From: Aedes albopictus
Taxonomy: Eukaryota; Arthropoda; Insecta; Diptera; Culicidae
Reading direction: 5' to 3'
Assembly (NCBI RefSeq): GCF_035046485.1
Contig: NC_085138.1
Coordinates: forward strand, 44,365,464 to 44,429,463
Length of the DNA stretch: 64,000 nucleotides
Shown here: positions 896 to 29,518 of the stretch, piece by piece
Position numbering within the stretch: the first letter of the stretch is position 1
How the letters are laid out: each line of letters opens with the position of its first letter
Program-made: the position numbers and the translations under genes
The notes under the pieces: model-generated
Told to the model about the DNA's origin: nothing
What the model saw: the letters and a program-made list of their open reading frames with translations, nothing else
The model's database searches: none

Positions 896-1919
896 GTGCC
901 AGACAGAGACCCTCAAAGCAGGCCTTCTTGCTTGCTCTTATCTCGGTCTTGAGCGCGGCTTTTGCAGCGGCGAACACCACCCGCCGTTCGTTTCGCTCTT
1001 CCTCTGATCGTGCTCGCTGCATCCGCCGCCTAGCCCGTAGGCAGGCGCGGCGCAGGTCCGCAATCGCGTCGGTCCACCAGTAAGCCGGTGGCCTCCCATT
1101 TCTAGGGTGGACTCGCCTAGGCATGGTCGCATCACACGCACGTGAGAGCACCGCTACCAGCTCGTCGCCGTCTAAACCGAGTAAGTTTCGCTCACGGCGG
1201 AGCGCTTCCCTAAATACCTCTTCGTCGAAGTATGATGTCTTCCACCTACGAGGGCTTGGCCTTGGCCTAGCCGCCTCTTCTTCTATCCGCTGTCTGCTGT
1301 TGTTGTAGTCGATACTGTAGCGAACCGCCAGGTGGTCGCTGTGAGTGTAGCCATCATCTACTCTCCAGTTCGGACTACTTGTTAGGCCAGGACTACAAAA
1401 GGTCACGTCAATAATTGACTCCGCTCCATTTCGACTATAGGTACTCTTGGTACCGACGTTAGCCAAGTCGACATCTAAGATGGCCAGTGTTTCTAGCAGG
1501 ATCTGACCCCGCTGGTTCGTGAAACGGCTTCCCCATTCCACAGCCCAGGCATTAAAGTCACCCGCTATTACCACCGGCCTTCGCCCTGTTAGCACGGTCG
1601 TTAAGCGGTCCAGCATTTGCGTGAACCGCTCGATCGGCCACCGCGGAGGCGCATAACAGCTACAGAAGAAGACCCCGTTTACTTTGGCGACCACGAAGCC
1701 CTCATAGGTAGTAGACACCAACTCCTGCACGGGGTATTTACCCGTCGTCCATATCGCCGCCATTTTCCTGGTCCCATCCGAGGCCCAGTTGCCGTTGCCG
1801 GCGGGTACTCGGTATGGGTCCGAAATGATGGCGATATCCGTCTCCCACTCAGAAACCGCCTGACAAAGCAGTTGCTGAGCCGCATCACAGTGGTTCAGGT
1901 TCAGCTGCGTTACCTGCAC
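891..1919 (-). CDS. APE-type endonuclease domain of non-LTR ORF2
   Basis: The 342-residue frame starts MQVTQLNLNHCDAAQQLLC and shows the exonuclease/endonuclease/phosphatase fold signatures: an early Asn, a GDFNAWAVEWGS segment near residue 140, and a late THSDHLAV segment near residue 205 with the catalytic SDH. Enzymes of this family nick the target DNA to prime reverse transcription. The start overlaps the gag stop (1910-1912), as is usual between ORF1 and ORF2. The frame ends early at 891 by a one-base shift, and the RT continues in another frame. Confidence 0.88.
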   Translation of the reverse strand: MQVTQLNLNHCDAAQQLLCQAVSEWETDIAIISDPYRVPAGNGNWASDGTRKMAAIWTTGKYPVQELVSTTYEGFVVAKVNGVFFCSCYAPPRWPIERFTQMLDRLTTVLTGRRPVVIAGDFNAWAVEWGSRFTNQRGQILLETLAILDVDLANVGTKSTYSRNGAESIIDVTFCSPGLTSSPNWRVDDGYTHSDHLAVRYSIDYNNSRQRIEEEAARPRPSPRRWKTSYFDEEVFREALRRERNLLGLDGDELVAVLSRACDATMPRRVHPRNGRPPAYWWTDAIADLRRACLRARRRMQRARSEEERNERRVVFAAAKAALKTEIRASKKACFEGLCLAL

Positions 1920-2637
1920 TGTGATTTCTTGTTCACTGCGGCTTTCTTAAAGGCCGGGCACCCTGAACCACCCATCGCATGTCTGTTTTTCGAGGTTTTC
2001 CCGGTACAGATCATGCAAATGGGCGGACTCGTGCAGCTTTGGGCCTTATGACCTTCAGCGCCGCATCGCCTACACAGTTTGCGCCTGTCGGGGACTTTGC
2101 AGTCCCACGACTTGTGTCCAGGTTCCAGACACCTGAAGCAAACCTCTGGTGGCTCGTGAAATGTCAGGTGACATACACACCAGCCCACCTTTATCCGCCC
2201 TACTTTAACGGACTTTTTAACGTCCGCCACAGGTAGCTGAACCAGAGCTATCTGTTTCCCTGCTGGCCCCTTCCGCAGCCTGACGGCTGTGGCGGCCACC
2301 TGAACATCGCACTGTTGCCGCAGTGCCGTGACGAGCTCTTCCGCTTCGGTGATCTCGTCTAGGTCTTTGACCTTCAGAGTCGCCTCATGCGTAAGAGCCC
2401 TCACCTCCACTCCATCACCAAGGACCTCTTCTGCCAGCCTCTTGTAGGCGGCGCCCTTGTGATCCTTCTCGCGCTTAAGCTCCAGGATCATTTCGCCCGT
2501 ACGAGTACGTCTGATACTGCGTACGTCGGCTCCAAGACCCTCAAGCTTGGCGTCGCACCTCATCGCCTTCAAGACGTCCGAGTATTTCGACTGTTCGGTC
2601 TTGATGACGATAGCGTCACCTTTTTCGCGCCTGGCAC
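1910..2637 (-). CDS. Gag-like ORF1, C-terminal half with zinc knuckles (interrupted gene)
   Basis: The minus frame runs from the insert boundary at 2637 to a stop at 1910. It contains a CX2CX4HX4C knuckle (CFRCLEPGHKSWDC), a second one (CRRCGAEGHKAQSC) and a third CxxC-type motif, which are nucleic-acid binding modules of non-LTR gag proteins. The frame is open through the junction at 2637/2638, where it meets the 8-bp target duplication. The N-terminal half ends at the other copy of that duplication at 16947-16954 and is in the same phase, so the gene was continuous before the insertion. Confidence 0.87.
2630..2637. repeat. 8-bp target site duplication, left copy (CCTGGCAC)
   Basis: CCTGGCAC lies directly outside the left terminal inverted repeat. 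The identical octamer lies directly outside the right terminal repeat at 16947-16954. Eight bases is the length typical of hAT-superfamily insertions. Keeping a single copy restores the gag reading frame. Confidence 0.85.
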
Positions 2638-2775
2638 TAGACCTGTGCGCCGCCGCGCCACGCCGCCGCCGCCGACACTTTTTGTCCCACGCCGACGCCG
2701 ACCGAGGTATCGGCGGCGCGCCATACGCCGCTTTTTGTCACGCCGCCGATTTTTATTTTTCGCGCCGGTGATCAG
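2638..2775. repeat. Left TIR and GC-rich subterminal region of the hAT-like element
   Basis: The 15-bp inverted terminus (2638-2652) is followed by about 120 bases rich in CGCCGCC, CACGCCG and GGCGGCG motifs in both orientations, then an abrupt change to AT-rich DNA near 2776. The right end (16803-16946) has the same composition. Repeated short subterminal motifs are typical transposase-binding regions of hAT elements; here that role is inferred. Confidence 0.75.
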
Positions 2776-3253
2776 TGCACGAATAAAATTAAGTTAACAT
2801 AAAGTTGAGATAAAACAAATTCTCACGATAACTAAGGACTGTATCGGAAATTACCTAAAAACGTTCACAGTTGCCTAAAAAATAATCTGTTGGAAATAAA
2901 CATAACTTTTATGTTGGAGATACTATAAAAATCTTTTAAATAAAGAATGGCAGTTCTGATTATCAAAAAATATCATTTAACTTGGACTTGCATCTCAAAG
3001 ATTGCACATATGTTTTTAAAATTTTGGACAAATCCTAAAAATTTAAAATTACGAAAACTGTGGGAAAATATTCAATTTTTTCTCTTATTTTGCGCAAATA
3101 TATTCTTTTCCAGAATGCTCATGATATAGGAAAATTATTTTTATCATGAAAAATGCCCTCCGCAGTTTAGCGCAAATCTTAAAAATGAAAAAAAAGGCCA
3201 TTTTTCGAGGATTTTTTTTAAAGCGTCTCCAAAGAACGATAACGCAAATAAAA
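2776..3253. other. AT-rich DNA without recognised features
   Basis: The reading frames at 2947-3129 (+) and 3085-3345 (-) are short, AT-driven and resemble nothing I recognise. I see no repeat structure here. Confidence 0.5.
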
Positions 3254-3305
3254 AAAACCCTTATTAATCCACCTAGCGGTGATGGTGCCTTTCTCGTGCC
3301 ATAAA
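3254..3305 (-). repeat. 3'-terminal fragment of the 152-bp-satellite element family
   Basis: Read on the minus strand, this piece matches the terminal block also found at 19560-19605 and 60785-60831 (GAGAAAGGCACTATCACC followed by ACTAGGTGGATTAAT), with a few substitutions. It marks a minus-oriented 3' end of that family. A minus-oriented 5' end of the same family lies at 9745-10070. Confidence 0.7.
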
Positions 3306-5129
3306 ATATTCTTTCAACAAAACACAAGTGACAAATTAAGTCCATGGTATGGGAGCAAAGTTCAAAATTATTAAATAAGTTTCTCTCTGAACGATGACAT
3401 GCATTATCAGGAATCGATCAGTGCAATAATAATTGTTAATTTTGTTCTCATAACAGCGCCAGAGCCGGAAAAGTAACTGTGTACATTTGACACAGCGGTG
3501 AGGCTGATCTAGTAGTACACAAATCTGCACTCTTAAAAAATTAGGAATTTACACATGACGTAAACCATCAACATACGTAAACATTTCATGACTGAATGGC
3601 AAATTTGACTCAATTGCACAAGATGTCAACAAATCTATCTAACCAGATAGGTAGAAACAGTTTTACATTTATCATTTATTTTTCAACTCCGAGATACAGC
3701 CGAGAGGTATAGCACGTGCCTCTCAATCAGCAGATCAGATTTCAAATCCTGTTTGTTTTTTTTACATACGTATGTTTTATCTCTCGCTTCGGCTCTAGCG
3801 ATTGCTAGCTCGACTTTATTTGTGATAGAAGACGTAAATTTGTCTCAAACGGGCCGCTCCTTTTATGTGCATCCAAGTGAGCTTTAATTTACATGATTTT
3901 TTCTAAGAGTGTGGGTAGGACATATGGACTGTCCAACCCAGCATTTTTTGTGGGTAGGATAGGGTAGGATATGTCCTAGAAACTCCTCGCGCCACTTTTA
4001 AAGTCTTTAAAAATATCACATCACAAATACCACTTTGTCTGATGGGCCGAACCTGTGGAATAGAGAACATTGGGCTTGTGCCCAAACGAAAACGTATACT
4101 CATGCAGAAATATTTCCACTTGGCCAATGAGTTGGTCTTACTTAAATATCCAATTTAACGCCCAGATGTATGCAACTTAGCATTATCACTTACCGTTACC
4201 TGACGTGCCATTGCCTTACTACATTCATACACCGAGGTAAATTTCTACTCAGTCACTGAGTTGGTCCTACTCAGAAAAAGAAAAGACTTTTATTTTCTTA
4301 CTTAATTTCCGTTAAGTTAAAACTGAGACAACTCAATGAGTTGCCTCACTTCTAACTGAAACTGAGCAGGAAAAAAAAAATAATTTGAAATAAATCCATC
4401 TCAGTAACTGAGTAGAATTTTTTCTCTTAAAACATCTTAAAACCCAACGGCCAATAAGAACATTTATTTCTCTTATAAGAAAAATTATATAAGGGAATAC
4501 CCATAAAAAACGTAACGTTTGGAGTGGGAGGGGGGTTTGGGATAGTTTGACTCGTAAAAACGCACAGAAAACCCCGTGCGAGAGGGGGTGGGGATGTACA
4601 TTACCAATTTTAGCGTGACGTACGTAATGGATGCTCCATGATGACTGTTTTGATGATTAAACAGCATCCTGTTCGCCAGATACACGTTTGGGAACATGGC
4701 AAAAATTCTTGAGCGTATACATCACGCGTTGTTGGGGAGGGGGGCTTCAGCAAAGTGTGAAAGTGTGAGCATTTTTTTTAGAGTTCTCATACAAAAAGTG
4801 TGACATAGGGGGAACGGGGTTTGAAAATCGGCAATTTTCGCGTGACGAAATTTATGGACGTTCCCTGATATCACGTTTCCGAAAAATGATGACGGATGTT
4901 TGAGCCGTTTGCTGCACATGAAGTCGACTCGTAAGAGTGATGCACGAATTAGATCTTAACGCAGCAAATCAGCCGCCGCCGTTGAATGTGGGTCTAGCCA
5001 TCGCTAGAACCGGATCAATAGATGAATCATATATATATAATGTGGTCCATTCATTTAATAGCAGAATGACATTTAAAACTATCCTAGAATGACAATTAAA
5101 GGAATACGAGAAATTTTTATTTTTTATCT
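3306..5129. other. Unassigned DNA with MITE-like fragments
   Basis: There is no credible coding region. Around 3690-3750 a degenerate tRNA-like stretch (AGCCGAGAGGTATAGC followed 30 bases later by GATTTCAAATCC) could be an old SINE head. Around 4260-4420 the words ACTCAGTGACTGAG and AACTGAG recur in both orientations. At 4490-4580 and 4700-4880 there are G-tract stretches (GGGAGGGGGG) next to forms of CGTGACG and TTTATGGACG. They resemble the foldback MITEs at 19738-19897 and 8373-8538 but are too diverged for firm ends. Confidence 0.4.
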
Positions 5130-5150
5130 AAATTTAATTTGACTCTGAAT
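5130..5150. repeat. 21-bp target site duplication, left copy
   Basis: The 21 bases beginning AAATTTAATTTGACTC at 5130 recur exactly at 6358-6378. They flank a segment that ends in an ATC-repeat tail, the pattern left by target-primed reverse transcription. Confidence 0.82.
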
Positions 5151-6357
5151 CATCGTAGTGTGCTGTGGAAAGTGACGGACGTGAAGAAAATTGCTCACGT
5201 CAAAATAAGTGAAAATTTCTTTTACCGAGATGTCGGGCGAATGAAAAAATATCGACGAGGGACGAAATGGAAAGCATGGGAACTGCAGCGCTGAGAAACT
5301 GAAGCTACATTGTGCCATTGGTTCGTTGGGTCTGTTGCACGAAGGTTGCTGCCAAAACAATATACGGATGAGATGTGCGGTGGAGTCCAACTGTAAATTT
5401 TGGTGAGATCAATCCAGTATTTCAATTTAAAAGTTTCTGAATAAGACTTACTACCCAAGTAACACAACAAGCTATTTAAGAATGGCCATTGTTCGGCCGT
5501 ACACGAAATTTTGAATGGCGTCCTGGGCGTCCTGAAATTCAATAACAATTTGCCCATAACAAACTTTTCTCTGGCCATCGTCTACGGCGCCCTGCACAAA
5601 TTTTATTGCTAATGCAAATCTATCTCGACAATGTAGTCCGCGTCGGTGATCTTTCTGATCAATGGCAACCCAAATATGGGCCAAAAATTATGCATTAATC
5701 TGTGTTGAATTTTGCAATTATTCGGCAAACTTGAATTAGGCGCTGTTATAAAATAAAAACACTATTTCTTTCATGATTGATTTGCATGATTCTCCGGTTT
5801 TGTTATAGATTAGTTAAATTTACTCATTTAATACTTCGTGCAGACTATGATTTGTTTTTGCTGTTTGTAATCGGCCAACATTATTAACTCCAAAATATGT
5901 TTCCTGATACCAAAGAATAAAAATTATTATTATTCTTTACTGAAACACTTATATTACAGTTATAACATCTCTTGAAATTTTGATTTAAAAAAATGTTTTT
6001 TGTGTTACTTGGGTAGAGATATATCAATTGAGATTTATCTTATTAAATTTTCCATTGTTTTTGTATTACAATATATTACAATTTCCATATGTATATGACG
6101 GGGTTTACACACACACGGGGGGGGGGTAGCCTAAGGGAGTTAAATGAACTGATGCCCGGACTTAAGTTCGTGGAGTAGCCAGTCTTTTGTCATGAGTTAG
6201 CAACTTTATGTTGACTACCGAAGGAATTCAGGAATTTTAACTCACCCTGCTACAACAAACCATCAGGTAGATCATTCCCTCCCGGAGTGACTCTGCAGCC
6301 ATAGGTAATCCTTGCGCTGATGGTGGGTACACTTCAATCATCATCATCATCATCATC
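5151..6357 (+). mobile_element. 5'-truncated non-LTR retrotransposon copy with (ATC)n tail
   Basis: The segment lies between perfect 21-bp direct repeats and ends in a CATCATCATCATC tail at about 6339-6357, so it is a plus-strand retrotransposed copy. It carries a nested TA-flanked MITE at 5454-6013; without that the copy is about 645 bases. The 3' untranslated part (6100-6338) holds no reading frame, and the 5' part (5151-5453) shows no protein motif I recognise, so the clade is undetermined. Confidence 0.72.
5454..6013. mobile_element. TA-flanked MITE with CCCAAGTAACACAA termini
   Basis: The segment begins CCCAAGTAACACAACAAG and ends in the inverted counterpart TTTTTTGTGTTACTTGGG, directly flanked by TA on both sides (5452-5453 and 6014-6015). 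No transposase frame is present in the 560 bases. The terminus closely matches the short element at 63515-63669 (CCCAAGCAACACACATG), so both belong to one family that targets TA. It is nested inside the non-LTR copy at 5151-6357. Confidence 0.82.
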
Positions 6358-6378
6358 AAATTTAATTTGACTCTGAAT
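6358..6378. repeat. 21-bp target site duplication, right copy
   Basis: Exact copy of 5130-5150, placed directly after the ATC-repeat tail of the non-LTR insertion. Confidence 0.82.
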
Positions 6379-6616
6379 TTGTAGTAGAATCGCATTTGCC
6401 ACGTGGTTTAAATAAAATGTAATTTTTAATATTAGTTTCCTTAAATTACTGAGCTTGAATTTGCTTTAAATTTCTTTGCATATTCGCGACAATTCAAAAG
6501 TTCTGAAACCTTAAACATTCCGAGAAATGCCTGAAATTATGTAAAGTATCGAGAATTTCCAATGTCCTAGATGCATACGGATATAGGTATCTTTTACAGG
6601 TTTGGTTTTACAAACT

Positions 6617-6849
6617 CTGGACGAACATTTGAAAAGGGCCTATCTGCTTTTTGTAAACAAACATGTTTCTGTCTCTGTAGGGCCCATCTGCATCCACCCA
6701 CGCACATCAACACCCTTAACAGATAGCTTGAAGAACACTCTTTCTGATAAGGGTGTTGATGTGCGTGGGTGGATGCAGATGGGCCCTACAGAGACAGAAA
6801 CATGTATGTTTACAAAAAGCAGATAGGCCCTTTTCAAATGTTCGTCCAG
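6617..6849. mobile_element. Near-perfect foldback element (233 bp)
   Basis: Two arms of about 102 bases (6617-6718 and 6748-6849) are reverse complements with one mismatch seen by eye, separated by a loop of about 29 bases. The ends are CTGGACGAAC and GTTCGTCCAG, with AACT on both outer sides as a possible 4-bp duplication. Because the arms mirror each other, both strands encode almost the same 74-residue peptide, which is an artefact of the palindrome and not a gene. Confidence 0.85.
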
Positions 6850-6853
6850 AACT

Positions 6854-7729
6854 GATTTATACAAGCTGTTGCAGGCATGTGGCTAAACTTCCGACGTGGT
6901 GGAACTGCTCATGTAGTTCATTATGAATTTCGAGCTCGTTATTAATAAAAAGCTTAGAGCACGATTACATACCTATTAGGTAATATTTTGGAAACCATTA
7001 TGAACTGCATGGGAACTGTATGAAATGGTTATGTCTTTTGCTGCTTCATAAGGTTAGCCTTTTGTAATTCTCTAAATCAGTTTGCAGATCTTACGGTTGC
7101 GTTCTGGCGGAATCTGAAGCTACCCGTTTCCACAGTAGCCAGTATGAGAATCTAATAAAGCGCGTAAATAAATATTGCTTTTTTCACTGAAAATTTTCCT
7201 TGCTTCGCTGAACAACATGACGTTTTCTTCCAGCGAAGGCTTACGCGATACAGAATACAGAAAACGTATGCGACTCACTGAAAGCTGCGCGAATGCTATC
7301 GATCGCGGTCACCAAGACAATCTTTGTTTGTTATTTCCGCGCATCACCGCTGGCTGTGTGCGTGATCCTGATCCTGCCCGCGCGCACCAGTCTTTCGGTG
7401 GGCAAACAACATCATTCGCGAGTGACAACCATTTCGCTCGCATTATCCCAGCATTGATATTATATGATAATATCAATGTCAATATGTTGTCAACATATGT
7501 TGTATTGGTGCCGGTAGTGGGATGCAAGGTTTTTATATATTGTAAGGTTGAGCATGACGTTTAGTTTGTGGAGAAAAGCAGAGGAAGCGAAATTTCAAAG
7601 GAATTTGAGGTGGCGGGGGATTTGTTTTCTGAATTTCTCACGGTGAAAAAATAATGGCCGCTCAACCAGTTTTGACATCTAAGACTACCTTAGAATATGT
7701 AAATACCTTGGTGGGATGCACTTCAAAAC
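6854..7729. other. Unassigned DNA with one unsupported reading frame
   Basis: A plus-strand frame of 129 residues (7175-7564) has no domain I recognise and no codon pattern that sets it apart. A short palindrome (ATTGATATTATATGATAATA...) sits near 7453-7478. I treat the stretch as non-coding. Confidence 0.4.
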
Positions 7730-7731
7730 TA

Positions 7732-8124
7732 CACTGAAATAAATTTTGTTGTGGAAACTACCGATTCCATAGTAAAATTACTAACCGTACCTATGATTCT
7801 CAACCGACAACATTTTCCAGTTAATTCCACTAAAACACTGTCAACTTAACTAGCAGTGCAGTTAACATTACCAAAAATAATCTTAATTTAACAAATGAGC
7901 AATGTATTTTTAACCATACTGTTTTGTAAAATGCGTGTCCTGGAAAAATTCACAATGTTTTGTGTTGAGACGACTATGCTTTTAGTTGAATTTACTACAA
8001 TACATTGTAATTTCAAGCATATTTCAGCTTCCTTAACAGATTTTGTTGTCGGTTGAGAATCATAGGTACGGTTAGTAATTTTACTATGGAATCGGTAGTT
8101 TCCACAACAAAATTTATTTCAGTG
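7732..8124. mobile_element. TA-flanked MITE with 81-bp perfect inverted repeats
   Basis: The left arm starts CACTGAAATAAATTTTG at 7732, and the right arm (8044-8124) is its reverse complement over about 81 bases without a mismatch seen by eye. TA lies immediately outside both ends (7730-7731, 8125-8126). The 393-bp element has no coding capacity. TA targeting and the CACTG start are shared with the element at 8830-9653. Confidence 0.87.
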
Positions 8125-8372
8125 TAGGCCCAGTTTCGAACGTAGAACGCCCAGAACGTAATTTAAAACGAAAACCTTCGGCTGCCTCCCGTCCGTCACT
8201 GTCACTTAGCATCGCCATCGCTATCGAACCATGAATGGCAGTGAGGTTGGGTGCTATGCTCGATTAGCCACCTTCACCCAGCCCATGCACTCGGGTGGGT
8301 TTGAGTCGGCGTCGAAGCGCTGGGGGTGACGTATTACTTTAGGGGGAGGGGGGCAATCGGGGTCATTCCGAA

Positions 8373-8538
8373 GGGGCTGTTCATAAACCACGTATACCAA
8401 AATTTGGCCATTTCAGACCACCCCCCCCCCTCGTAGACTTATGTCCATACAAAAATTTTGAAATTTGTATAGAGCGTAGACTTTGGCCAGACCCACCCCC
8501 TTCGCCCCATAAAGTCTACGTGGTTTATGAACGGTCCC
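8373..8538. mobile_element. Short foldback MITE (GTTCATAAACCACGTA type)
   Basis: It begins GGGGCTGTTCATAAACCACG and ends in an inverted copy (read inwards, GGGACCGTTCATAAACCACG), with C-tracts and G-tracts between. It is 166 bp with no reading frame. A partial relative lies at 21520-21565, and a parallel family with GTCCATTAATTACGT ends at 19738-19897. Confidence 0.75.
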
Positions 8539-8829
8539 AAAACACGATTTTTGCCATCATCACACTCATACGTGGTTCGTTAGTGATGGGTGACAACTCT
8601 AGGCTTTGTTTGCTTATATGTATAGCACGTTAGCGCCGCTCTTTCGTCGTCGTCGTTTTCTCTCACATTCTCTCTTACTTTCGTTCTCGTGGTGTGCTAG
8701 GATAGGATACGACAACAAGTCAGCCCAAAAGAGACCAATTTGGGGACCAATAATCTTAGCAACGCGGAAAAACAAGACAGCAAGCTGTGATATTAGACAG
8801 AGAAGTTGCAGGTGTCACATCCTATCCTA
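8539..8829. other. Unassigned, pyrimidine-rich stretch
   Basis: It contains a CGTCGTCGTCG run and TCTC-rich DNA near 8637-8690. The frame starting at 8606 has no recognisable domain and runs into the next MITE. Confidence 0.4.
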
Positions 8830-9653
8830 CACTGCAAAAACTGCAAATATTCATTTTATGTTTCGTACACATATATTTTTGCAATTTGTCTAGACAAATA
8901 CTGTTTATGTGTGACACACATAACGAACTGTTTTTTGGTATTTATCGTTCTGATGTGTGATTACACATAAAAACAATACAGAATGACAAATATAATCAAT
9001 AGATGCGCTCAAATGGTTTTGATATGAGAGTATAGAAGTTTTACCGGGGATTAAAATTACAAATTTGATCCATAAAACTATAGAATTGATCTTGGAATTG
9101 ATTTTAAAACAAATCCAAGAGATCATTTAAAAAAAAGCCAAATATCGTATTGCACCGAAAAGTTGGTTGATTGTTAACCACCAGTGAGTGACCAATCGGT
9201 TAACTTTGCATACCAAGCTTTGCACCTCCGAGTTATGTTTCAAACTGTGAAAATTTCTAAAAATTCCCAAGTTTCCGATAATTTTTTGATTTCAAGCGAT
9301 TGAAGATGACTTTTTCATGCTCCAGTGCACATAACCGCTATGATTTTGGTCAAATTACTTCACTGGGAACTGCAACTCCTGCAGTTTTTTCTTTGTAAAC
9401 TGAAACGCGTCACCATTTTTTCACTTTGCAGATCGCGGACGGCTGACAACGACGCCATGCATCGTTATTATGTGTGTACACACATATTTTTTTGCTATGG
9501 GTGTTAACACATACCAACTATTTGTGAAACTAATCTAAAGCATAGATAACAAACATGTTGATTATATTTTAGGTAATAAAATTTATGTGTGGGAAGGTCA
9601 ATTGGATCGATGTGAATTTTCACATAGAATAAATATTTGCAGTTTTTGCAGTG
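8830..9653. mobile_element. TA-flanked TIR element (CACTGCAAAAACTGCAAATA termini)
   Basis: The left end reads CACTGCAAAAACTGCAAATA and the right end is the inverted counterpart, flanked by TA at 8828-8829 and 9654-9655. The 824-bp interior has no transposase; the frames at 8905-9126 (-) and 9325-9507 (+) match nothing I know. Several occurrences of ACACATA and TGTGT words lie near both ends. Confidence 0.8.
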
Positions 9654-9744
9654 TAGGTGGTGTGCTGCGAGCTGCGGCGTCCGTCGTGGCGGTCGTCGCG
9701 CACCAACTTAAGCAGGCTGTTACACCTGTCGCTCGGGTGAAAAA

Positions 9745-10070
9745 TGCTGGTCCGGATCACTAAATTGGCCATAATTCCGAAACGCCTTGACCGATCCGAA
9801 TCATTTTCAATAGCAAACAATGCGGTAAAATTCCGGTTCGATTCGAGCTATAATCCGAAAAATCGGCCAATGGGAAGTGCCTTAAAAGTGAGTGAACTTA
9901 TTTTGTTCACAGACACACATACATACACACATACAGACATCATCTCAATTCGTCGAACTGAGTTGATTGGTATATGCGACTTGACCCTCCGAGCCTCCTA
10001 TCGAAAAATTTTTTTTTGAGTGAACATATAGCCTTTCAGTTCACTTAGGTGAACGAGAAAGGCAAAACAT
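9745..10070 (-). mobile_element. 5' end of a 152-bp-satellite element copy (minus)
   Basis: Read on the minus strand it starts TTTTGCCTTTCTCGTTCACC, continues through the CAACTCAGTTCGACGAATTG segment and a short TGTGTATG stretch, then a block resembling the one at 55740-55815 (GGTCAAGGCGTTTCGG, AATTATGGCC). The satellite monomers are absent. It may be the partner of the 3' end at 3254-3305. Confidence 0.7.
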
Positions 10071-10894
10071 AAAGTTGAAAATTTACATTTTTTTCAATTG
10101 GGTATGTATTTAAATGTATTGAAGAGGTAGTTTTATCAGGGAATGGAATTTTATAACTTCTGAAGATATTTGAAATAAAGCGCCAAATTTTGAACAAAAG
10201 GTTGTTTTTTTGGGATAGACCTAAACATGGGAGGTTTTTCTATCCAAAATAAGAATTTTAAAAGTCGTTATTGAGTGATATGTTATGTGTACATAAATGT
10301 TAGTAATAATCATTATTTTCCAGATTTTTCCCCGTACATTTTTTTCGCTAGAAATTATTGAAACGTTAAAAAAATATTAAAAAATGCAGTTTGTATAGAT
10401 TGTTATTTTGTCTGGTATACTCATAGAACCATATTTTCAATATTACTAAACATTTTCCAAATTTCTTCAAGCTGTTCTAAAGTTAACTATATTGTGAAGA
10501 TTTAATAGAAGAACCAGAAAAAAAGACCAACCGTGCTTCGAGATAGAGCTTTTTGAACATTTATAGGTAATTTCCTATACAGTTCTTATCATAAGAATTT
10601 GACTGCAATACACTTCTCATCATCGATTTTTTCAATACTATGAGGAGAATATCAATAAAAAATTCAATCACTAAAGTTATGCCCTTATGATATTGATATT
10701 GAAAATAGTACGTTCTAACAATTTGAAATCCGGTCATTGAATCTTTGGTCTGTCTATTGCTTTAGACAAACTCTGCAGAAGACTCTTATTAAGAACTCCT
10801 GAAGAAATTTTCTGGGTGTCCATTCAAATACGAAACTCTAAGAACTTTTTTTACATTTTTCATTAGATTCCATTCATTATTCATCATTCACATC
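10071..10894. other. AT-rich DNA without recognised features
   Basis: About 820 bases of AT-rich sequence with many stops in all frames. I see no gene, RNA or clear repeat. The 24-bp array begins at its right edge. Confidence 0.5.
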
Positions 10895-12979
10895 TCTCCA
10901 GAAGTTTCTCCAAAGATTCTTCCAAAAAGATTCAGTGATACCTCCAGGAGATTTATCAGGGATTCTTCCAAAAAATCCTTCGGGGATGCCTCCAGGTTTT
11001 TTATTGATCCAGGATTGATTGTTTTTATTCAGACGATCTCTTAGGAAAATATCGACAGGAGAAGTTTCAGGTCAAACTCCAGGAGTTCCTTTATATTTTT
11101 TTAAGAGGATTCAGGGATGCCTCCTGTAAATACATCGGAGATTCATCCAGAAGATCCTTCATGTACTTCTATAGGAGGTGCTTCGGAGATTAGTCTGAGA
11201 GTTCCTTCAGGCATTCCTTCTGAAGCTCCTTCAGGAATTCCTACAGGAGTTTCTTCAGAAACTAGTAAAAGAATTTCCTCAGAGATTCCTCCAGGAGATC
11301 CATCAGAAATTTCTCTGGAATTCCTACAAGGCATTTCTACTGACGTTCTGTAGGGATCCTACAAAAAGATCCTTCAAATATCACTCCGGAAGTTTCATCA
11401 AGGGTTCTTACAAGAATTCCTTCTAGCACCCCTCCTAAAATTGCTTCGGGGATTCCTCTTGGAATTACATCGGAATGCCTCATGTAATTTTCCAAACATT
11501 CTTACAGGAGTTCTTTCAAGGATTGCTCCAGAAGTTTCTTCGAGGATCTTTCCAAGAGTTCGTTTAGGGAACTCCCCAATTGCTCCCGGAGGGATGCCAC
11601 CAGGTGTTCATTAGGAATTCATCCAGAAACTCGTTCAGGTGTCCTTCCAAAAGTACCTTCAGAGGCTTTCAGAAGGATTCTTAAATGTCTCCTGTAGATC
11701 CATCAAGAATTTCGTAAGAAGCTTTTCAAGTGATTCCTTCAGGAGGTCTTCAGAAATTAGTCTAGGAGTTCCTGCAGGGATTCATTCTGAAGTTCTTTTA
11801 GAAATTCTTACAGGAGTTCTTACAGAAATTAGTCCAGGAGTTCCTTCAGAGATTCCTCCAGGAGTTTCAGGGGTTCTTGCGGGTGTTTCTTCAGTGATTC
11901 CTCCTTAGTTTTTTTTTTTTCAGGGATTGCTACAGAAGTTCTCTCAGAGAATCTTATAGAAGAATCCAAGGACACCGAAGAAATTCCGTCGGGAATTCCC
12001 TCTGCAATTCATCCAGAGACTTATTCTGTAATATCTCCGGGGGTTCCCCTGAACTTCCTCTGAGGATTCCTCATGAAAAACTTCGGGGATTCCTCCTGAT
12101 ATTTCGTCGTGGATTCCTCTTGGAATTACTTCGCGGTGTTCTCCTGGAATTCCATTTGAGATTTTTCTGGTTTTTATTTCAGGGATTCCTCCTGGGCTTC
12201 ATTTAGGGATTCCTCCTGGAATTTCGTCGGAGATTCCTCTTTATATTCTTTCGGAGATTCCTCCTAGACTTTATTCTGGAATTTCTCCTGGGATTCCTTC
12301 GGGATTCCACCTGGACTTCCCTCATGGTTTTCTTATGAAATTCTTTCGGGAGTTCCTCCTGGTATTCTGTCGTGGGTTTCTCCTGAAATTTCTTCGGGGT
12401 TTCCTCCTGGAATTTCATTGATGATTTCTCTTAGAATTTCTTCGGAGATTCCTTATGGATTCCTCATGGATTTCCTCCTGGAATTCCTTCGGTGATTTTT
12501 CTTACAATTTCTTAGGGGATTCCTCCTGGAATTCGTTGGGAGATTTCTCTTAAAATTCCTTCGGGGATTCTTCCTAGAGTTCCTACGGGGATTCCTCTTG
12601 GAATTCCTTCGGGGTTGCTTCATGAAAATCCTTCGACTAATTCGCTTGGAAATCCTTCGGAGATTCCTCCAAGAATTCCTTCAGGGGTCCTCCCTGGGAT
12701 TTTTGCAGGGATTTCCCATGTTATTTCTTCGAAGATATCTGCTGGAATTATCCTCAAGGATAAAAAATCCTCCAGGAATTCCGTCGGGTATTTTTTCGAG
12801 ACTTCCTTCAGGAATGCCCCCTGCATTTCCTTAGGGGATTCCTCCTGGAATTCTTTCGGGGATTGCTTAGGTGATTCCTCTTGGAATTGCTTAGGTGATT
12901 CCTCTTAAAATTTCTTGGGAGATTTCATTCCTTGAATTTCTTCGGGGATCCCTCCTGAAATTGTTCGGGGATCTTGTCA
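10895..12979. repeat. Degenerate 24-bp tandem array, first block
   Basis: The stretch consists of diverged repeats close to GGGGATTCCTCCTGGAATTC followed by CTTC, a 24-base unit built of two similar 12-base halves. Because 24 is a multiple of three, several frames stay open and give peptides of the type IPSGIPSEIPPG. These are by-products of the repeat and not genes. The array is interrupted by the TIR element at 12980-14585 and resumes at 14586. Confidence 0.88.
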
Positions 12980-14585
12980 CACGGGGAAAAATCCGCTGCT
13001 TCAAACCTGCTATATGAGTCATGATTTCGCGTAAAATGTGTGTTTTCATGTTATAAATATACACCACAAAAAAAGGTCATACTTTCATGACTCATGTTGC
13101 CGTAACGTCACCTTGGCGTTACGTTTTTCATATTTATTGACAAAAATTTGTAAGTTGAGTCATGATATCATACCCATGAATACCAGCACTATTAACTTGA
13201 TTCATAAAACCAGAAGCGGTATTCATAGAACTAGTAGTTGTCATTTATGGTTCCAGTTTTATTAGCGAAATTTGGTAAGTCGGTTCATATTATCATGAAG
13301 TACGTACTCAAACTATGAACTAAATTTATGAAAGCTTGAGCATTACTCATAGTGCAAGTATTTGTCATTTATGGTACTGAATCGATTTGCGAAAAATGGT
13401 AGTACTGGTCATGTTATCATAAAGCATGTTCTTAATTTATTACCCAATGTTTTAAAAACATAAGCAGTATGCATGATTCTAGTATTTGTAATTTATACTA
13501 TCGGATTAATTGGTGCAAAGTGGCATTTAAGGTCATGTTATCGTGAAGCACGCACTCTGAAATCATTAACAAGGTTCCTGAATATTGAAGTAATTTTTAT
13601 GATTCTGGTATTTGTCATTTGGCTGCACGTTTTGAGATTTCTATTGTCTTGTTTGGCTGCAAAAAAACAAAGTCTATTCTTCATTACACCACGCAAGTCT
13701 ATTCTTTATTACACCACGAAACCTAACCTCGAAATGTTTGACATTAGCCAGGTCATTTTGACAGATCACACACATGCAAGAAAGACACGAACAATTTTCT
13801 TGCAGTTTGCCGACCTTTTCTTGCTCGTGTGAGATCTGTCAAAATGACCTGGCTCCATACTGTCAAATTTTCATTCATAAAATGAGCGATCAGTTGTTCT
13901 GAACCGTCTCGTAAAATGGTCCATAGACATAGGGGGCGTCCATAGATTACGTCATTCATTTAGCCAAAATTTTGTGCCGGAATTGTGCGTGAGCTTGATT
14001 GTTCTGCTGCTGATGAAGCTAACCGGAGTTTTGTGCCGGAATATGGAGTTTTTCTACTTTCAACTTCTGGAATGTAGTTCAATAATTATATAGTTTACTA
14101 CTATTTAAGTAAGAACAATTCACAACACTTTTTCGAAAAGCAAAAAAAATCTCACCGGAAAACACTGCCGCTCACAAAAGGCGCCTTGACAGAAGTGACA
14201 AAAATGGCGTAGGTGATTCTGCGCGAGGGTTTGCGTAACGCTTACAGTGCCCAAATTCGTTTGTTGTGATTCATGATTTTATGACTCTGCGTTATGTTTA
14301 TACGACTCAGCGTCTGGTTGAGATGACTCAGCGTCATAGTTTTGTGACTCAGAGCCATGCTACCATGACTCAGCTTTATAGTATTCAATTTATGAAAACG
14401 AGCTTAATTTTTTCATAACGCTTTTGACGGCCATGGCTTTTGTTGATGGAATCAGTTATTATTATTCATGATAATCGTTGTTAACGTCACGATATCATGA
14501 TTTGTAGTTACAATATCATGAAGCGACAAGTTTTATGATTTCATAACATTTTAGTCATGGATCCGGCAACGAATTTTTTCCCGTG
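12980..14585. mobile_element. TIR element with internal ~125-bp repeats, inside the 24-bp array
   Basis: The left end CACGGGGAAAAATCCGCTGC and the right end read inwards, CACGGGAAAAAATTCGTTGC, match at 17 of 20 positions. Array sequence lies on both sides. The interior 13010-13620 holds about four diverged units of roughly 125 bases sharing GTCATGTTATCATGAAGCA and TAGTATTTGTCATTTATGGT-type words, and 14270-14370 repeats GACTCAGCGTCAT. No transposase frame. The target duplication is unclear. Confidence 0.68.
13746..13854. mobile_element. Small foldback sequence (109 bp)
   Basis: AGCCAGGTCATTTTGACAGA at the left is mirrored by TCTGTCAAAATGACCTGGCT at the right, with a shorter imperfect inverted core (TGCAAGAAA and TTTCTTGC-like words). 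It is nested in the TIR element at 12980-14585. Confidence 0.75.
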
Positions 14586-16515
14586 CAGGGATTTCCTTAT
14601 GAAATTCCTTCGAGGATTCCTCCTAGAATTCCTTCGAGGTTGTCTTCTGAAAATCCTTCAGTGATTCCTCCTAGAATTCCCTCAGGAATTTCTGTTGGAA
14701 CTCCTTCAGAGATTCCTCCTGGATATTTTTCGTTGATTCCTCCTAGAAACGCTTTGGGGATTCTTTCTCGAATTTCCTTGGAATTCTTTTGGTGATTCCT
14801 GCTGGAATTGCTTTGTGTGTTATAGCTGGAACTCCTTTGAAATCCGTTCTGGATTTTTTCGGGATTTCCTCTTGGAATTCTTGCGGGGATTCCTCCTAGA
14901 ATTATTTCAGGGATTCGTCATGAAATTCATACGAGGATTTCTCTTGGAACTCCTTCGGAGATTCCTCCTTAAATGCCTTCACGGATTCCTCTTAAAATTC
15001 CTTCGGGGATTCCTCATGAAATTTATCCAGATGTTTCTTATGGAATTCCTTCGAAGATTCCTCCTAGATATTTTTCGATGGTTCCTCCTAGAAATCTTTT
15101 CTCGGATTTCTTCTGAAATTCCATGGATTTTTTTAATTCCTTTGGGGATTCCTCCAGGACGTACTTCGTGGATTCCTCCTGAAATTCTTTTGTGAATTCT
15201 TCTTGATATTCCGTCGTGGATTCCTCCTGGCATTTCTCCTGGATTTCCTTCTTGAATTTCTTCGGTGATTTCTCTCACAATTCCTTCGGAAATTCCTCCT
15301 GGAAATTGGGGATTCTTCTTAGAGTTCCTTCGAAGATTCCTTCTTGAATTTCTTCTTCAGGTCTTCCTATGGGTATTCCTCTTGCAATTCCTTCAGGGTT
15401 TCCTTTGAAAAACCTTTGAAGATGCCGCTTGTAATTCATTCGGAGATTCTTCCCAGAATGGCTTCGGTGGTTCCCTCTGGAATTCCTTCAGGGATTTCTC
15501 CTAGAATTCTTTCGAAGATTCTTCCTATAATTCTTTCAGGGATTCTTTTTAAATTCATTTTGAGATTCCTTATGGAATTCCTTCGTGCATTCCTGCTGGA
15601 ATTCCTTCGGGAATTCCTTTTTATTATTTTTCGGGGATTCCTTCTAATATTTCATCGGAGATTCTTTCTGGAATTCCTTAGGGATTTCCTCTTGAAATTC
15701 CTTAGATAATTCCTCTTCAAAGTTCTTCGGAGATTCCTCCTGAAATTCTATCTCGAGTTCCTTCGGGGATTCTTACTAGAATTCCTTAGAGGATTCCTCC
15801 TAAAATTCCTTCGGAGATTCCTCCTGGAGTTCCTTCGGGATTTCCTCCTAGAAATGTTTGGGGGTTTCCTTCTATGGTGATTCTGCCTTGAATTCCTTTA
15901 AACATTTCTTCTGGCTCAAAAGTTCTGGAGGATTTCTCCCAGAGTTCCTGGGGGAACTTCCATCGACGATTCCTCTTGAAATTCCTTCGGGGTTCCCTAT
16001 CGGAATTCCTCTGGGAATTCCTCTTAGTATTCCTTCGAGGATTCCTCGTGAAATTCTTTCGGCAATTCCTCCCGGAATTCTCTCAGGGATTTCTTTGGGA
16101 AATCCTTCAGAGATTCGTACTGGATATTTTTCGTTAATTTCTCCTAAAAATCCTTAGAGGATTCCTTCTCGGATTCCTTTAGAAATTCCCGTTAGAATTC
16201 ATTCGGGGATTTCTCCTGGAATTCCTGCTTGAATTCATTTGGGGAGTCCTTCGGGAATTCTTTCGATGATTCTTCCTGGATTTACTTATAAATTCCTCAA
16301 AAATCAAGGAATTTCTTCATAAGTTTCAGCAGGGATCTCTCCAAGAGAGATTTTAAACCACCAGAGATTCCTGGAGAAGTTCCTTCAGGGTTGAATACAG
16401 CAGTTCCTGCAGAGTCCAGAATTTCCTTCATGGATTCCTCCAAGAGTTTCCATGAGACGCCTCTTGGAATGCCTTCTGAGAATCCTCCCTGAAATCATTC
16501 GGGGATTCCTCAGTG
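14586..16515. repeat. Degenerate 24-bp tandem array, second block
   Basis: This continues the 10895-12979 array with the same GGGGATTCCTCCT and GGAATTCCTTC half-units, ending near 16515. The open frames inside it (for example 14815-15195 and 15344-15709) follow repeat phase and are not genes. Confidence 0.88.
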
Positions 16516-16802
16516 TAAATAATGCGACCTCAATATCAAATGTGATAGCTTCTGTAGGTTCGAAGAAAACAAAACAAAAACTGTAGCAAAGTCGATATTT
16601 TATAGCTCCTTATTTGAACTGCAGAAATGCAACATGCACTACACTAAGGATACGGGAAATGTGGTGGCTGTGACGGACCCGAACAGAAATAGAAAAGGCA
16701 TACAAACATTGATACGTAATAGTTTATGTCATCAATGGTCATGAAAAAGCTCAGACTACAAATTCATAAGCGTAATGACAACTTCTTTGCCAATGACATT
16801 AT
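16516..16802. other. Unassigned stretch between array and hAT right end
   Basis: About 290 bases with no reading frame or repeat that I recognise. It separates the 24-bp array from the GC-rich right terminus. Confidence 0.45.
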
Positions 16803-16946
16803 GGTAAAATTTTGGTAACGCCGATTCACGCCGCCGCCGCCGCCGCCGATAGCTGCCACCGGCGTGACGCCGATGACGCCGCCGCCGCCGGCCAAAAATG
16901 GCCCTCACGCCGCCGCCGAGCAAAATATAGTCGGCGCACAGATCTA
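16803..16946. repeat. Right TIR and GC-rich subterminal region of the hAT-like element
   Basis: CACGCCGCCGCCG motifs are repeated at about 16829, 16867 and 16906 in the same composition as the left end, followed by the inverted 15-bp terminus at 16932-16946. The last three bases, read on the minus strand, form the TAG that truncates gag. Confidence 0.75.
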
Positions 16947-16954
16947 CCTGGCAC
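16947..16954. repeat. 8-bp target site duplication, right copy (CCTGGCAC)
   Basis: Exact partner of 2630-2637, directly outside the right terminus of the hAT-like element and inside the gag coding sequence. Confidence 0.85.
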
Positions 16955-17930
16955 CTGCCTTCCTACGCCTTGGCTTGGCGACCTGCACTTCTGCCTGCGG
17001 ATTCACCTTCTTCTTCCTCTTCCGCTCTACCTTTGTCCAAGGAGGGTCCTCTCCTTGGATCGCCCTGCTCTGTGGCTGCTGAGAGCCCACCATTGGTCGC
17101 AACCCCTTGTTCCCATCATTCCGGGACGGGCCGGCCTTTTCAGGCCCACCCTTCCCAGCTTTCCGGGAACCCTGGCTGGGGTCCGACTTTCCGGCATAAC
17201 CACCGGCTTTCGGGGTTATTATGCGCCTGGCCTTGCGGGCACCGCCAGACAGCTCCTCACCTGACGGCTGCCTCGCCCGCTTCTGCGAATGCTTGTCACG
17301 AGCATTCGCTTCCACACTCTTCGGACTACCCGCGAAGGAGAAGGCCTCCGTTTGCGTAAGCTTAGACGCTTTCTCCTTTGCGGGTTCCGCCGCTGCCGCA
17401 GCCAGCAACGCGACCGCGTGCTCCTGCTTGGCCTCATCGACTGACGCTCTAAGCCGAAGCAAGGCCGTTTTCAGGTCCTTGCTTATATTCGACTTAGTTG
17501 TCGCGAAGTCAATAATCTTGCCAAGCTGCTGCTCAGCTACCTCCAATGCGGGCCGTCCTTTTCCTGCTACTTGGCTGATGGCCCTCAGCAACCATGCTCC
17601 GTCCATAACCTCCGCCGGCTGGCTTGCCGTGGAGTGGACAGGAGCTCCCACGCTTGAGCTGCGTAAGCAGCTTCCAGCACCTGACTCCTCGCTTCTCCTT
17701 GTTGGAGACCGCATCAACCCGCTTCTTGCGAAGGGGTTGATCGCACCACTACTTCCACCTAAGTTATTTGTTGCACGAGAAATAATGTCCACCACGCCAG
17801 AGCTCTGCATTAACGTGGTAAGGGACAGCATACTGTGGGGGGTGCCCAGGTACCCCACAGGCTCCGTTAAAAATCGGGCATCTTTTTCACCCCCTCGATC
17901 ACTCATTCCTCGGCACGGGTCGCTTGACAC
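16955..17930 (-). CDS. Gag-like ORF1, N-terminal half (interrupted gene)
   Basis: The minus frame begins with Met at 17930 and is open to the insert boundary; with the octamer and the first bases of the insert it stops at 16944-16946. About 325 residues are present. The region is rich in Ala, Ser, Lys and Arg, ends in a basic stretch (KVERKRKKKVNPQAEVQV), and has a helical, possibly coiled-coil segment near residues 140-185. The zinc knuckles are in the other half at 1910-2637. The stop codon here is supplied by the TIR of the inserted element. Confidence 0.82.
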
Positions 17931-18032
17931 CTTGAATTGGGGTTAGTAGTCCTATTCTTAGCCGGCAACTACGCGGCTGACTCGCAAGCGGGGGGGGTGC
18001 GTCAGGCCCCAGGACATCCGTCCCTGCTGCTG
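17931..18032 (-). other. Probable 5' untranslated region of the R1-type element
   Basis: This GC-rich segment upstream of the gag start differs sharply from the TG microsatellite that begins at about 18033, where another element takes over. Whether 18032 is the true 5' end or a truncation cannot be told from the window. Confidence 0.5.
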
Positions 18033-19605
18033 GTGATGTCTGTGTGTGTGTATGTGTGTGTGTGTGTGTGTATGTGTGTATGTGTACAAAAAAAACTCAC
18101 ATCACTTTTTGGCAGTAAACCTCAACCGATTTTAATGACCAATGGTTTATTCGATGCGGAATCTGGTCCCATTGTTTCCTATTGAAAATGGTTCGGATCG
18201 GTCCAGCCGTTCCGGAGTTATGGCCATTTACGTGTTCCGGACCAGTACCCTTGGAAGGAGTCATACATAAAAATGTAACAAACACATACATGCGACACAT
18301 CAAACTGCGGCATTTTGGATAACCTGATGAACAGTTAGCAAGAAAACAGTCTCAGACCATATCTGAACCGGTTGTGTTCCGGAACCGGTTCCGGATGTCC
18401 CGCCGGAAGTGGCCAAATATAAAAGTGAACCAAATCCATGCATGCGACACATCAAATTGCGGCAATTTCGATAACCTGATGGACAGTTAGCAAGAAAACA
18501 GTCTCAGACCATATCTGAACCGGTAGTGTTCCGGAACCAGTTTCGGGTGATCCGCCGGAAGTGGCCAAATATAAAAGTGAACCAAATCCATGCATGCGAC
18601 ACATCAAATTGCGACAATTTCGATAACCTGATGGACAGTTAGCAAGAAAACAGTCTCAGACCATATCTGCACCGGTAGTGCTTCGGAACCGGTTCCGGGT
18701 GTTCCGCCGGAAGTGGCCGTATATAAAAGTTGACAAAACTTTTGAATACGACACATCAAACTACGGCTTTTTCGACAACTTGATGACCGGTTTTTGAGGA
18801 AGTAGGCTAAGACCACATTATGGACTGTCAGTAGTGCTGAAACTAGTTCCGGGTTTCCCTCCGAAAGCGGCTAAATATAAAATTGAACCAAACCCATGGC
18901 TTTTTTGATAACCTAATAAACTTTAGCAAGCAAATAGGCTCAGACTATTTAAGAGATTATCGGTAGTGCTCCACAACCGGTTCCGGGCCGGAAGTGACAC
19001 CAAGCCCATGCATGCTATAGCTCAAATCACGGCTTTTTAGGTAACATGTTGGACAGTTGCAAGAAAATAGACGCAAGCCATATCAGTGTGTTACGGAACC
19101 GATTACGGGTGTCCCACCAGAAATGGTCAAATTAAAAAGAGAATCAATGCATATGCGAAATATCAATGACTTATTCAGTAACAAGATAAACGGTTAATCA
19201 ACAAATAATCTCAGACCATATTTGGGAGAACCGGTAGTGTTCCAGATCAGGTAACAAGACGAGTAACGCGTCGGAAGTGGTAAAATATAGCTGACGCTCA
19301 CCCCGCTACCGTAGCGGATGGAATGGGGTCATAATGACCCCAATACATGACTAGGGTTAAGGTGGTCAAGCAGTCATCTGAGAGGTCTGCTATTTTTCAG
19401 CTCTGTTTTGCTGTTGAACATAACATCGGAATATGTTTCATCAATAAGTTTCGAAAATCGATGATGGCTTTGTTAAAATGTTGCTTTTCTATATGAAATG
19501 TTTTCAGGATTCAGGAACATTTTGGCTAACGTCAACGAAAAGTTCATGAGTACATATTCGACGAGAAAGGCACTATCACCACTAGGTGGATTAATCTGGG
19601 TTTTT
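18033..19605 (+). mobile_element. 152-bp-satellite element, copy lacking the 5' end
   Basis: It starts abruptly at GATGTCTGTGTGTGTGTATG, followed by a TG microsatellite (18041-18083), the block with TCGGTCCAGCCGTTCCGG, then tandem 152-bp monomers and the terminal block at 19560-19605. The word TGCGACACATC recurs at 18291, 18443 and 18595 and as TACGACACATC at 18747, each exactly 152 bases apart. Monomers decay after about 18800. There is no coding capacity. The sister copy at 55459-60831 has both ends. Confidence 0.82.
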
Positions 19606-29300: not shown

Positions 29301-29518
29301 ACCAAATTTATCGGATGGATCTTAAAGCCATGTTTGACTACCAGGTCTCGTGAGCTCAAAATGCTCACACTCGCTCCCGAATCTAATAAAGCGACAATTG
29401 GACTTCCCAGCACTTCAACATTTATGTAGGGGCATTTACTGGGTCTGGTATTAATATAACAGGTTGTCGCGTATTTGGAATACGGTTGGTTATCGGGAGT
29501 TTTTTCTTCTGGCACCAA
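26306..29518 (-). CDS. pol: Pol polyprotein (protease, RT, RNase H, integrase)
   Basis: About 1070 residues, intact. Protease: ALLDSGAS near residue 43. RT: VIDLSKAYWQI (motif A) near 333, then MPFGLKGAPTTQ and the catalytic YLDD near 398. RNase H: ESDASDVAVGAVL near 546 and TEKECLGV near 592. Integrase: H-H-C-C zinc site near 731-772 (ETHDAMHFGRF, CQGCDTC), and the D-D-E core with SVDFVGP near 797, ISDNGVQF near 857 and NPTERVNR near 890. The frame is in -1 relative to gag and opens upstream of 29518 in the gag overlap, so translation is expected by -1 frameshifting at 29578-29584, not by a separate start. Confidence 0.95.
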   Translation of the reverse strand: MVPEEKTPDNQPYSKYATTCYINTRPSKCPYINVEVLGSPIVALLDSGASVSILSSRDLVVKHGFKIHPINLVIKTADETAHNCEGVIQVPYTFNGVTNVVPTLLVPQISKKLILGMDFWDAFKIAPAFVKGDAVRPIPSIEGNVINMIEDFFAEEEEVIVLSVEPQGHPQCVEDERVEDNSLDLPFIEDVENNKAQNITTEHDLSAEERTELNEIIEMFKATNGGKLGRTNLLSHRIQLIEGAQPKKPPQYRCSPHIQKEVDKEVARMLELDVIEESTSDWCNPLLPVKKTSGEWRICLDCRRINDITKNEAYPYPDMLGILGRIERAKYFTVIDLSKAYWQIPLEESSRDYTSFRAGKQLFRFKVMPFGLKGAPTTQTKLMNKVLGIDLEPYVYVYLDDIIITSNSLKEHFRLLRLVAERLRKANLTISLEKSKFCQKTISYLGYTLSEQGLAVDSTKIQPILEYATPKTPKEVRRFVGMVSFYKQFIERFSDLTAPITDLLKGTKGKICWTKEADEAFLKIKSVLTSPNVLANPDFQLPFIIESDASDVAVGAVLVQVIDGIRRPIAFFSRKLSATQRKYAPTEKECLGVILAIQKFRHYVEGSRFTVVTDAQSLIWLRRISAEGGSAKLVRWALKLQQYDFELLYRKGSLNITADALSRSVLTVDSVDPEYEDLKNKILSNNVKFKDFRVVKDKIYKIVTSKFIDPRFEWKYVPLTRERIKLIQETHDAMHFGRFKTLKKLQEQYYWPLMENDVRKYCQGCDTCKKTKYPNINRTPLMGKQKVASLPWQTISVDFVGPFPRSKSGNSVLLVVTDLFSKFVIIQPLRDAKTKPLISFLENMVFLLFGVPEILISDNGVQFKSKEFEKFLSNYHVTHWKNANYHPANNPTERVNRVIGAAIRTYVKDDHKEWDRDIQKVAMAIRTSVHESTSFTPYFVNYGRNFISSGAEYKRIRETNDDAGYDPLELNENLKSIFEAVKINLKKAYDRYAKHYNLRSSKTIPSYEIGEIVLKKNFFLSSKSKQFSAKLANPFSLAKVVGKIGSACYDLEDVQGNRLGVFHASHLQKK

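Follow-up and report, generated by a model that had tools for sequence, protein, structure and literature searches.

The stretch of Aedes albopictus DNA analyzed here, hereafter the window, spans 64,000 nucleotides (C3:44365464-44429463 within a 1.344-Gb assembly) and holds a 14.3-kb insert (C3:44368093-44382417, duplications included) with hAT-like ends that splits the gag gene of an R1-like non-long-terminal-repeat (non-LTR) retrotransposon (Table 1). When the flanks were joined with a single copy of the 8-bp target duplication, a gag frame resulted that stays open for 571 codons of the minus strand, with the insertion junction at residue 329. Relatives of the rejoined protein numbered 27, and 12 were aligned; in those 12 the sequence runs through the junction, with conserved blocks on either side of it. 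The nearest relative, an Ae. albopictus protein with 92% identity, is gapless across the junction. Because the 571-codon frame is open and sibling gag proteins continue over the junction, we conclude that one gag frame was struck by a single insertion. The rejoined gag frame is free of stop codons; the second open reading frame (ORF2) of the same retrotransposon copy shifts frame near 891-937.

The original prediction for this locus had described an 8-bp direct repeat, 15-bp inverted termini with one mismatch, matching GC-rich subterminal regions and, outside these, the two halves of one non-LTR gag gene. All four features were recovered. The left and right terminal inverted repeats (TIRs) differ at one of their 15 positions, and apart from these two TAGAYCTGTGCGCCG has no exact match in the window; each end of the insert has a GC-rich stretch of about 120-140 bp. 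The duplicated 8-mer by itself is unremarkable (two matches in the window versus 1.2 expected). The window was then scanned for 8-bp direct repeats lying flush outside inverted repeats that match at 14 or more of 15 positions, which returned five cases, one being the insert; the same scan on 40 dinucleotide-shuffled windows returned none. The other four cases are palindromic 8-mers, CATGCATG or TGCATGCA, and in our reading stem from oppositely oriented copies of a 152-bp satellite. This 152-bp tandem repeat forms two distant arrays in the window (18267-18785 and 57936-58378), and its opposite-orientation copies near 36.6 kb are probably the source of the palindromic cases. The GC-rich subterminal motif CACGCCGCCG occurs four times in the window, twice at each end. 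The TIRs are inverted, yet all four copies of this motif (within 2638-2790 and 16815-16946) run in the same direction, on the plus strand.

An exact search of the assembly with the terminal 15-mer gave 1,163 matches (597 + 566), and the reversed-pattern control gave none. The search started from one exact pattern, which by design admits only C or T at position 5, and the places analyzed were the first 100 listed of the 1,163, all within the initial 66 Mb of C1. Among these, 68 fell into 34 facing pairs, compared to 0.8 pairs expected at random and a maximum of three over 500 trials. The members of a pair are 2.2-14.5 kb apart (median 5.6 kb), and no pair among the 34 is under 2.2 kb; 29 of the 34 measure 4.3-6.8 kb, thus supplying the shorter version of the insert that had been sought. 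The 15-mer also had 105 viral and at least 120 prokaryote matches, which were taken as chance, and the stored loci align nowhere to the insert.

We read 33 of the 34 pairs, with C1:23540173-23546884 left out, and in 32 of them a left-type end is partnered by a right-type end, as in the window copy. The 15-bp TIR is common to both types, and the sequences part beyond it, continuing as CCGCGCCACGCC at left-type and as ACTATATTTTGC at right-type ends, both with variants. Between subfamilies, the outer 130-bp ends have a median identity of 95-96%. The one pair that departs from this arrangement, L267/L268 (C1:63574201-63588946), is a 1.28-kb inverted duplication (99.9%) around one right-type end, without the 24-bp tandem array described below; the non-LTR element between its arms is 98.7-98.8% identical to the insertion in element A, also described below. 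It was excluded prior to the counts of arrays and duplications, which leaves 32 siblings. In 25 of these the 8-bp duplication at the flanks is perfect and in two more it matches at 7/8, for a total of 27 of 32 at 7/8 or better. The prediction that other copies of the TIR would pair the same types of end and have 8-bp duplications was thus borne out. No match to a transposase exon was found in the siblings.

Ac-type hAT elements prefer targets of the form nTnnnnAn. In the 26 perfect duplications obtained when the window copy is included, T was found at position 2 in 12 and A at position 7 in 16 (pooled p = 9e-5, for a test made after the duplications had been glanced at), and TA was found at positions 4-5 in one. 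The duplication of the window copy has A7, not T2. The TIRs of hAT elements, for their part, tend to have A at position 2 and G at position 5; the window copy has A2, with C (left) or T (right) at position 5. The T2/A7 bias agrees with the Ac-type preference and not with nnnTAnnn, which passages of PMC3499496 give as the target preference of TcBuster. The length of the TIR, 15 bp, falls within the 10-25 bp reported for hAT elements (PMC3942097).

We then examined the assembly for hAT transposase genes between the same ends. At least 138 matches to Dimer_Tnp_hAT were obtained, and 1.2 kb downstream was read for 20 of the 138, mostly the best-scoring. The right TIR was exact in one of the 20, present with two mismatches in another, and matched with four to six mismatches at best in the remaining 18. 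The exact case is that of element A, which occupies 15,555 bp of the minus strand at C3:274545561-274561115 and in which both TIRs are exact, the flanks form a perfect duplication (GTGTCAAA/GTGTCAAA), and the subterminal parts are of left and right type. Upstream of its hAT exons, and in the family orientation, an array extends for about 4.7 kb, broken by one short gap, and the gene itself matches Dimer_Tnp_hAT at 6.6e-17. A hAT transposase gene with the ends of the insert, as the original prediction had envisaged, is therefore present in element A, in the form of a broken gene.

The close matches to the last exon of element A were element B (55%), a degraded element C and a 44-residue fragment, D, with all others far weaker. 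A right-type end lies 3' of the gene in A, B and C (TIR with zero, two and one mismatches, respectively), that is, in three of the four closest transposase matches. Element B matches Dimer_Tnp_hAT at 3.5e-19, and its coding pieces have Hermes as their best solved match (2.3e-18) and insect ZBED4-like proteins as relatives. By eye, an N-terminal exon of B, which has its match in A, contains a partial finger-like motif, and Pfam zf-BED gave no match at E 0.01.

The 8-bp duplications, the 15-bp TIRs and the hAT gene between the same ends in element A uphold the assignment of the insert as a hAT-type unit, and we consider it very probable that the insert is a non-autonomous copy of a high-copy, array-dispersing hAT family mobilized by a hAT transposase in trans. 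Similar duplications are made by other superfamilies, and the family might belong to one of these, the Mutator-like elements (MULEs) or P elements, with the hAT gene in the neighborhood by accident. Passages of PMC5225508 describe MULEs of Ae. aegypti with 8-9-bp duplications, subterminal repeats and non-autonomous derivatives, and passages of PMC1562414 describe P elements of Anopheles gambiae that likewise make 8-bp duplications. We nevertheless regard such an origin as very improbable, given that element A has a hAT transposase gene between two exact ends within a perfect duplication and that a right-type end follows three of the four closest matches to this gene. The same sources describe Muta1 as having no apparent target preference, in contrast to the T2/A7 enrichment seen here, and An. 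gambiae P elements as having TIRs of 27-31 bp, as opposed to 15 bp. Three classes were also considered as such for the family. For MULEs, the transposase found between the ends is of hAT type and there is a target bias; for P elements, with TIRs of 27-31 bp in An. gambiae and a THAP transposase, the TIR here is 15 bp and the gene is hAT; and for miniature inverted-repeat transposable elements (MITEs), which are short non-coding copies, the 34 pairs span 2.2-14.5 kb with a median of 5.6 kb. The family was placed in none of the three.

A number of observations weigh against the hAT assignment or the role given to element A. Position 5 of the window TIR is C on the left and T on the right, not G. 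With the window copy counted, 7 of 33 copies are without a perfect duplication, two of these matching at 7/8 and five at 0-4/8. As a set, the duplications show no palindromic character (26 of 104 positions self-complementary versus 26.4 expected). The gene of element A is broken, with a non-LTR insertion in an exon and a middle exon that matches B in two frames, and no intact autonomous copy was seen. The ends of element A share just 82% identity on the left and 88% on the right with those of the family, and its array aligns to family arrays with 109-180 bits, not much more than the 89 bits it scores with an unrelated window array; family arrays align to that same unrelated array with 45-54 bits. 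Reading 5.2 kb upstream of B and 9 kb upstream of C revealed neither an array nor a left end, and D (C1:166243194) has no right-type end in the 2 kb read. Finally, BLAST alignments cross the site of the larger nested insertion of the window copy, described next, in just 3 of 20 siblings. Given the divergence of its ends and its broken gene, element A is not a recent source of the family.

The outer 130 bp of the left end of the window copy are 98.5% identical to those of sibling L262, and the AT-rich filler of the right-type end varies between subfamilies. Between the ends, the regions at about 2.84-10.6 kb and 13.0-14.4 kb were without coverage by the first 20 siblings, bar one 128-bp match to L236 (4908-5035, 82%), the sole match among these 20 in nested insertion 1. 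The empty site of this insertion is a single TA in all four siblings chosen for alignment (L236, L238, L246 and L252). At the site of nested insertion 2, BLAST alignments pass through in 20 of 20 siblings, which is weaker evidence, array slippage being possible. No Pfam domain was found in nested insertion 1 (2835-10586), and a six-frame Pfam scan of the whole insert, with stops as X, gave nothing over the cut-off (one DUF5610, E 0.15), in keeping with the prediction that the insert is without its own transposase. Subtracting the two nested blocks brings the insert to 4.95 kb, an ordinary size for the family. The unusual length of 14.3 kb that the prediction had remarked on is due to these insertions of 7.75 kb and 1.6 kb, and the part of the prediction that had the copy swollen by nested elements stands.

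The unusual length would also suit a macrotransposon, that is, two hAT copies moving jointly with the DNA between them, or an assembly artefact. Either is scarcely credible here: no inner TIR copy was found inside the insert at up to three mismatches, removal of the nested blocks restores the normal family size, and the same layout recurs at 32 other sites read.

Table 1 Features of the interrupted gag gene and the window copy, with two transposase-bearing relatives elsewhere in the assembly
Feature	Position	Strand	Remarks
Upstream part of R1-like gag frame	16955..17942	-	stop to stop
Downstream part of gag frame	1910..2637	-	CCHC zinc knuckle; up to stop codon
Left 8-bp target duplication	2630..2637	+	CCTGGCAC
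Right 8-bp target duplication	16947..16954	+	CCTGGCAC
Left TIR	2638..2652	+	TAGACCTGTGCGCCG; the more frequent form in the 100 listed places
Right TIR	16932..16946	-	TAGATCTGTGCGCCG
Left-type end	2638..2834	+	GC-rich subterminal (to ~2775), then AT-rich up to nested insertion 1
Nested insertion 1	2835..10586		7,752 bp; imperfect inverted ends (AGGACTGTAT...); TA duplication 2833-2834 / 10587-10588
Hairpin-like foldback in nested insertion 1	6617..6849		111-bp arms (97%); AACT flanks
Small TA-flanked element in nested insertion 1	7732..8124		inverted ends; 84-bp perfect arms 7729-7812 / 8044-8127
Second TA-flanked element in nested insertion 1	8830..9653		inverted ends
24-bp degenerate tandem array, first part	10800..12979	+	start approximate
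Nested insertion 2	12980..14585		1,606 bp; within array; ends CACGGGGAAAA...; CA/CA flanks
24-bp degenerate tandem array, second part	14586..16515	+	end approximate
Right-type end	16516..16946	+	~300 bp AT-rich filler, then ~130 bp GC-rich subterminal and TIR
Relative B (L278/L291/L295)	C2 360.43 Mb		TIR position 5 = G
Relative C (L292/L297)	C2 320.69 Mb		TIR position 5 = C

The original prediction had counted the 24-bp tandem array, together with the nested elements, as an enlargement of this one copy, and here it did not hold. The array content of each sibling was measured as BLAST coverage by the window array. The array is present in all 32 siblings, amounting to 2.9-4.2 kb in 31 and to 1.35 kb in the remaining one, and its orientation relative to the ends is identical in all 32. 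It was also found behind each of the three TIR ends examined from the 32 that were unpaired. As controls, a shuffled array gave no matches and the remaining 47 kb of the window gave 255 bp only. Rather than an enlargement of the window copy, the array is a core that the copies read have in common.

Six sibling pairs, picked as the most alike, were aligned globally over 4.9-5.6 kb with the array included, and showed about 97% identity in five cases and 93% in one. The aligned copies are full-length and lie at separate sites, which indicates that the array travels with the element. Between the subfamilies compared, array identity drops to 65-70%. A second array of 24-bp type, at 37426-39896 in the window, is only weakly similar to that of the family and has no hAT ends seen beside it, and arrays of this type occur outside the hAT family too. 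This general occurrence (37.4-39.9 kb of the window) and the mere 65-70% likeness of subfamily arrays could be explained if the arrays had expanded independently in each copy after insertion. We find this hard to sustain when copies at separate sites, each with its own duplication, are about 97% identical through the array and all 32 have it in the same orientation to the ends, findings that contradict independent expansion for the young subfamilies.

We propose that copies of the family move by cut-and-paste, making 8-bp duplications, with the hAT transposase presumably supplied in trans. The transposase may bind the GC-rich subterminal repeats, for which CACGCCGCCG is the natural candidate; according to passages of PMC10368747, the subterminal motifs to which the BED domains of Hermes bind are repeated, and they are arranged differently at one end and at the other. 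The window copy jumped into the R1-like gag gene, and it gained the nested 7.75-kb and 1.6-kb insertions either before or after that jump. On the simplest view, the array would be passive cargo already present in the founding non-autonomous copies. By such transposition, the family appears to disperse ready-made tandem arrays over the genome.

A further possibility is that the array is a cis-acting part of the family, such as a spacer, an enhancer or a chromatin signal, that is needed for mobility, with the result that copies without it stop spreading. Its retention in 32 of 32 siblings and behind three of three single ends is consistent with such a role, as are the narrow range of array length (31 of 32 at 2.9-4.2 kb) while the sequence drifts to 65-70% between subfamilies, the lack of MITE-like copies (none of 34 pairs under 2.2 kb), and the same-orientation array of element A. 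A founder effect, in which a few master copies gave rise to the family, would look alike, however, and the array sequence itself is unconserved. Elements B and C are without the array where read. Moreover, the sample comprises 100 of 1,163 places found with one exact TIR, and short copies with other ends fall outside that search. On balance a role in cis seems rather unlikely to us. We are equally hesitant about its corollary, that the array is a required structural part and that satellite-like arrays are maintained and spread across the genome through selection for transposition; should the array indeed be required in cis, transposition would itself act to maintain satellite arrays.

With 1,163 exact ends, and with the array in all 32 pairs and behind all three single ends examined, the family links to one mechanism, hAT transposition, tandem arrays that probably number several hundred and lie scattered through a large mosquito genome. 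The question of whether a transposon-borne satellite is passenger or part becomes testable, as the ends, a transposase-bearing relative and many copies of the array are available in one assembly. The window copy also illustrates how nested insertions can turn an ordinary element into a class II insertion of unusual length. That transposons carry or seed tandem repeats was already known, as passages on Tetris (PMC4079207) and of a review (PMC9659126) indicate. In the literature searched (listings, abstract openings and passages), no paper was recognized as describing this hAT family, and four full 15-mers had no occurrence in literature text among the matches listed. What sets the family apart is the combination of a hAT element, a constant tandem-array core, a high copy number and a transposase-bearing relative of the same architecture.

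The window contains several further repeats. On the minus strand at 26306-31617 is an LTR-type retrotransposon with a 686-residue gag-like frame and a 1094-residue frame containing protease, reverse transcriptase, RNase H and integrase. A second non-LTR element, with endonuclease, reverse transcriptase and RNase H domains, lies on the plus strand at 40542-44560, and a short stretch of it resembles the beginning of the element whose gag gene is interrupted. At 45602-46338 is a 306-bp tandem repeat of 2.4 copies with 83% matches.

When compared to known systems, the family most resembles Ac-type hAT elements such as Hermes of the house fly in its 8-bp duplications with T2/A7 bias, its short TIRs, its repeated subterminal motifs and a transposase with the hAT dimerization region. 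It differs in size, element A being 15.6 kb (about 11 kb when the roughly 4.7 kb of its non-LTR insertion are subtracted) versus the 2.5-5 kb given for hAT elements (PMC3942097), in that an array of several kb belongs to the element, and in the C or T at position 5 of the window TIR. The hAT MITEs, such as Mar of Drosophila (PMC3517528), are likewise non-coding copies with hAT ends, but MITEs are short, whereas the copies here have a tandem-array core and no pair is under 2.2 kb. Muta1 and other MULEs of Ae. aegypti share 8-9-bp duplications, subterminal repeats and heterogeneous non-autonomous derivatives, but according to passages of PMC5225508 their transposase is of MULE type, 12 of 14 families have TIRs longer than 100 bp, and Muta1 has no apparent target preference. 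The fungal ToxhAT/ToxTA, as passages of PMC12506042 describe it, is similar in being about 14 kb, non-autonomous, host to nested insertions and formerly labeled hAT; it has a TA duplication and 74-bp TIRs, unlike the family here, and its authors now place it nearer Tc1/mariner. Tetris of Drosophila virilis is, in passages of PMC4079207, also a non-autonomous DNA transposon with tandem repeats and a link between transposon and satellite. Its repeats of about 220 bp lie within long foldback TIRs, in contrast to the interior 24-bp repeats and 15-bp TIRs of the Ae. albopictus family, and while those passages report no transposase found for Tetris, the present family has a transposase-bearing relative.

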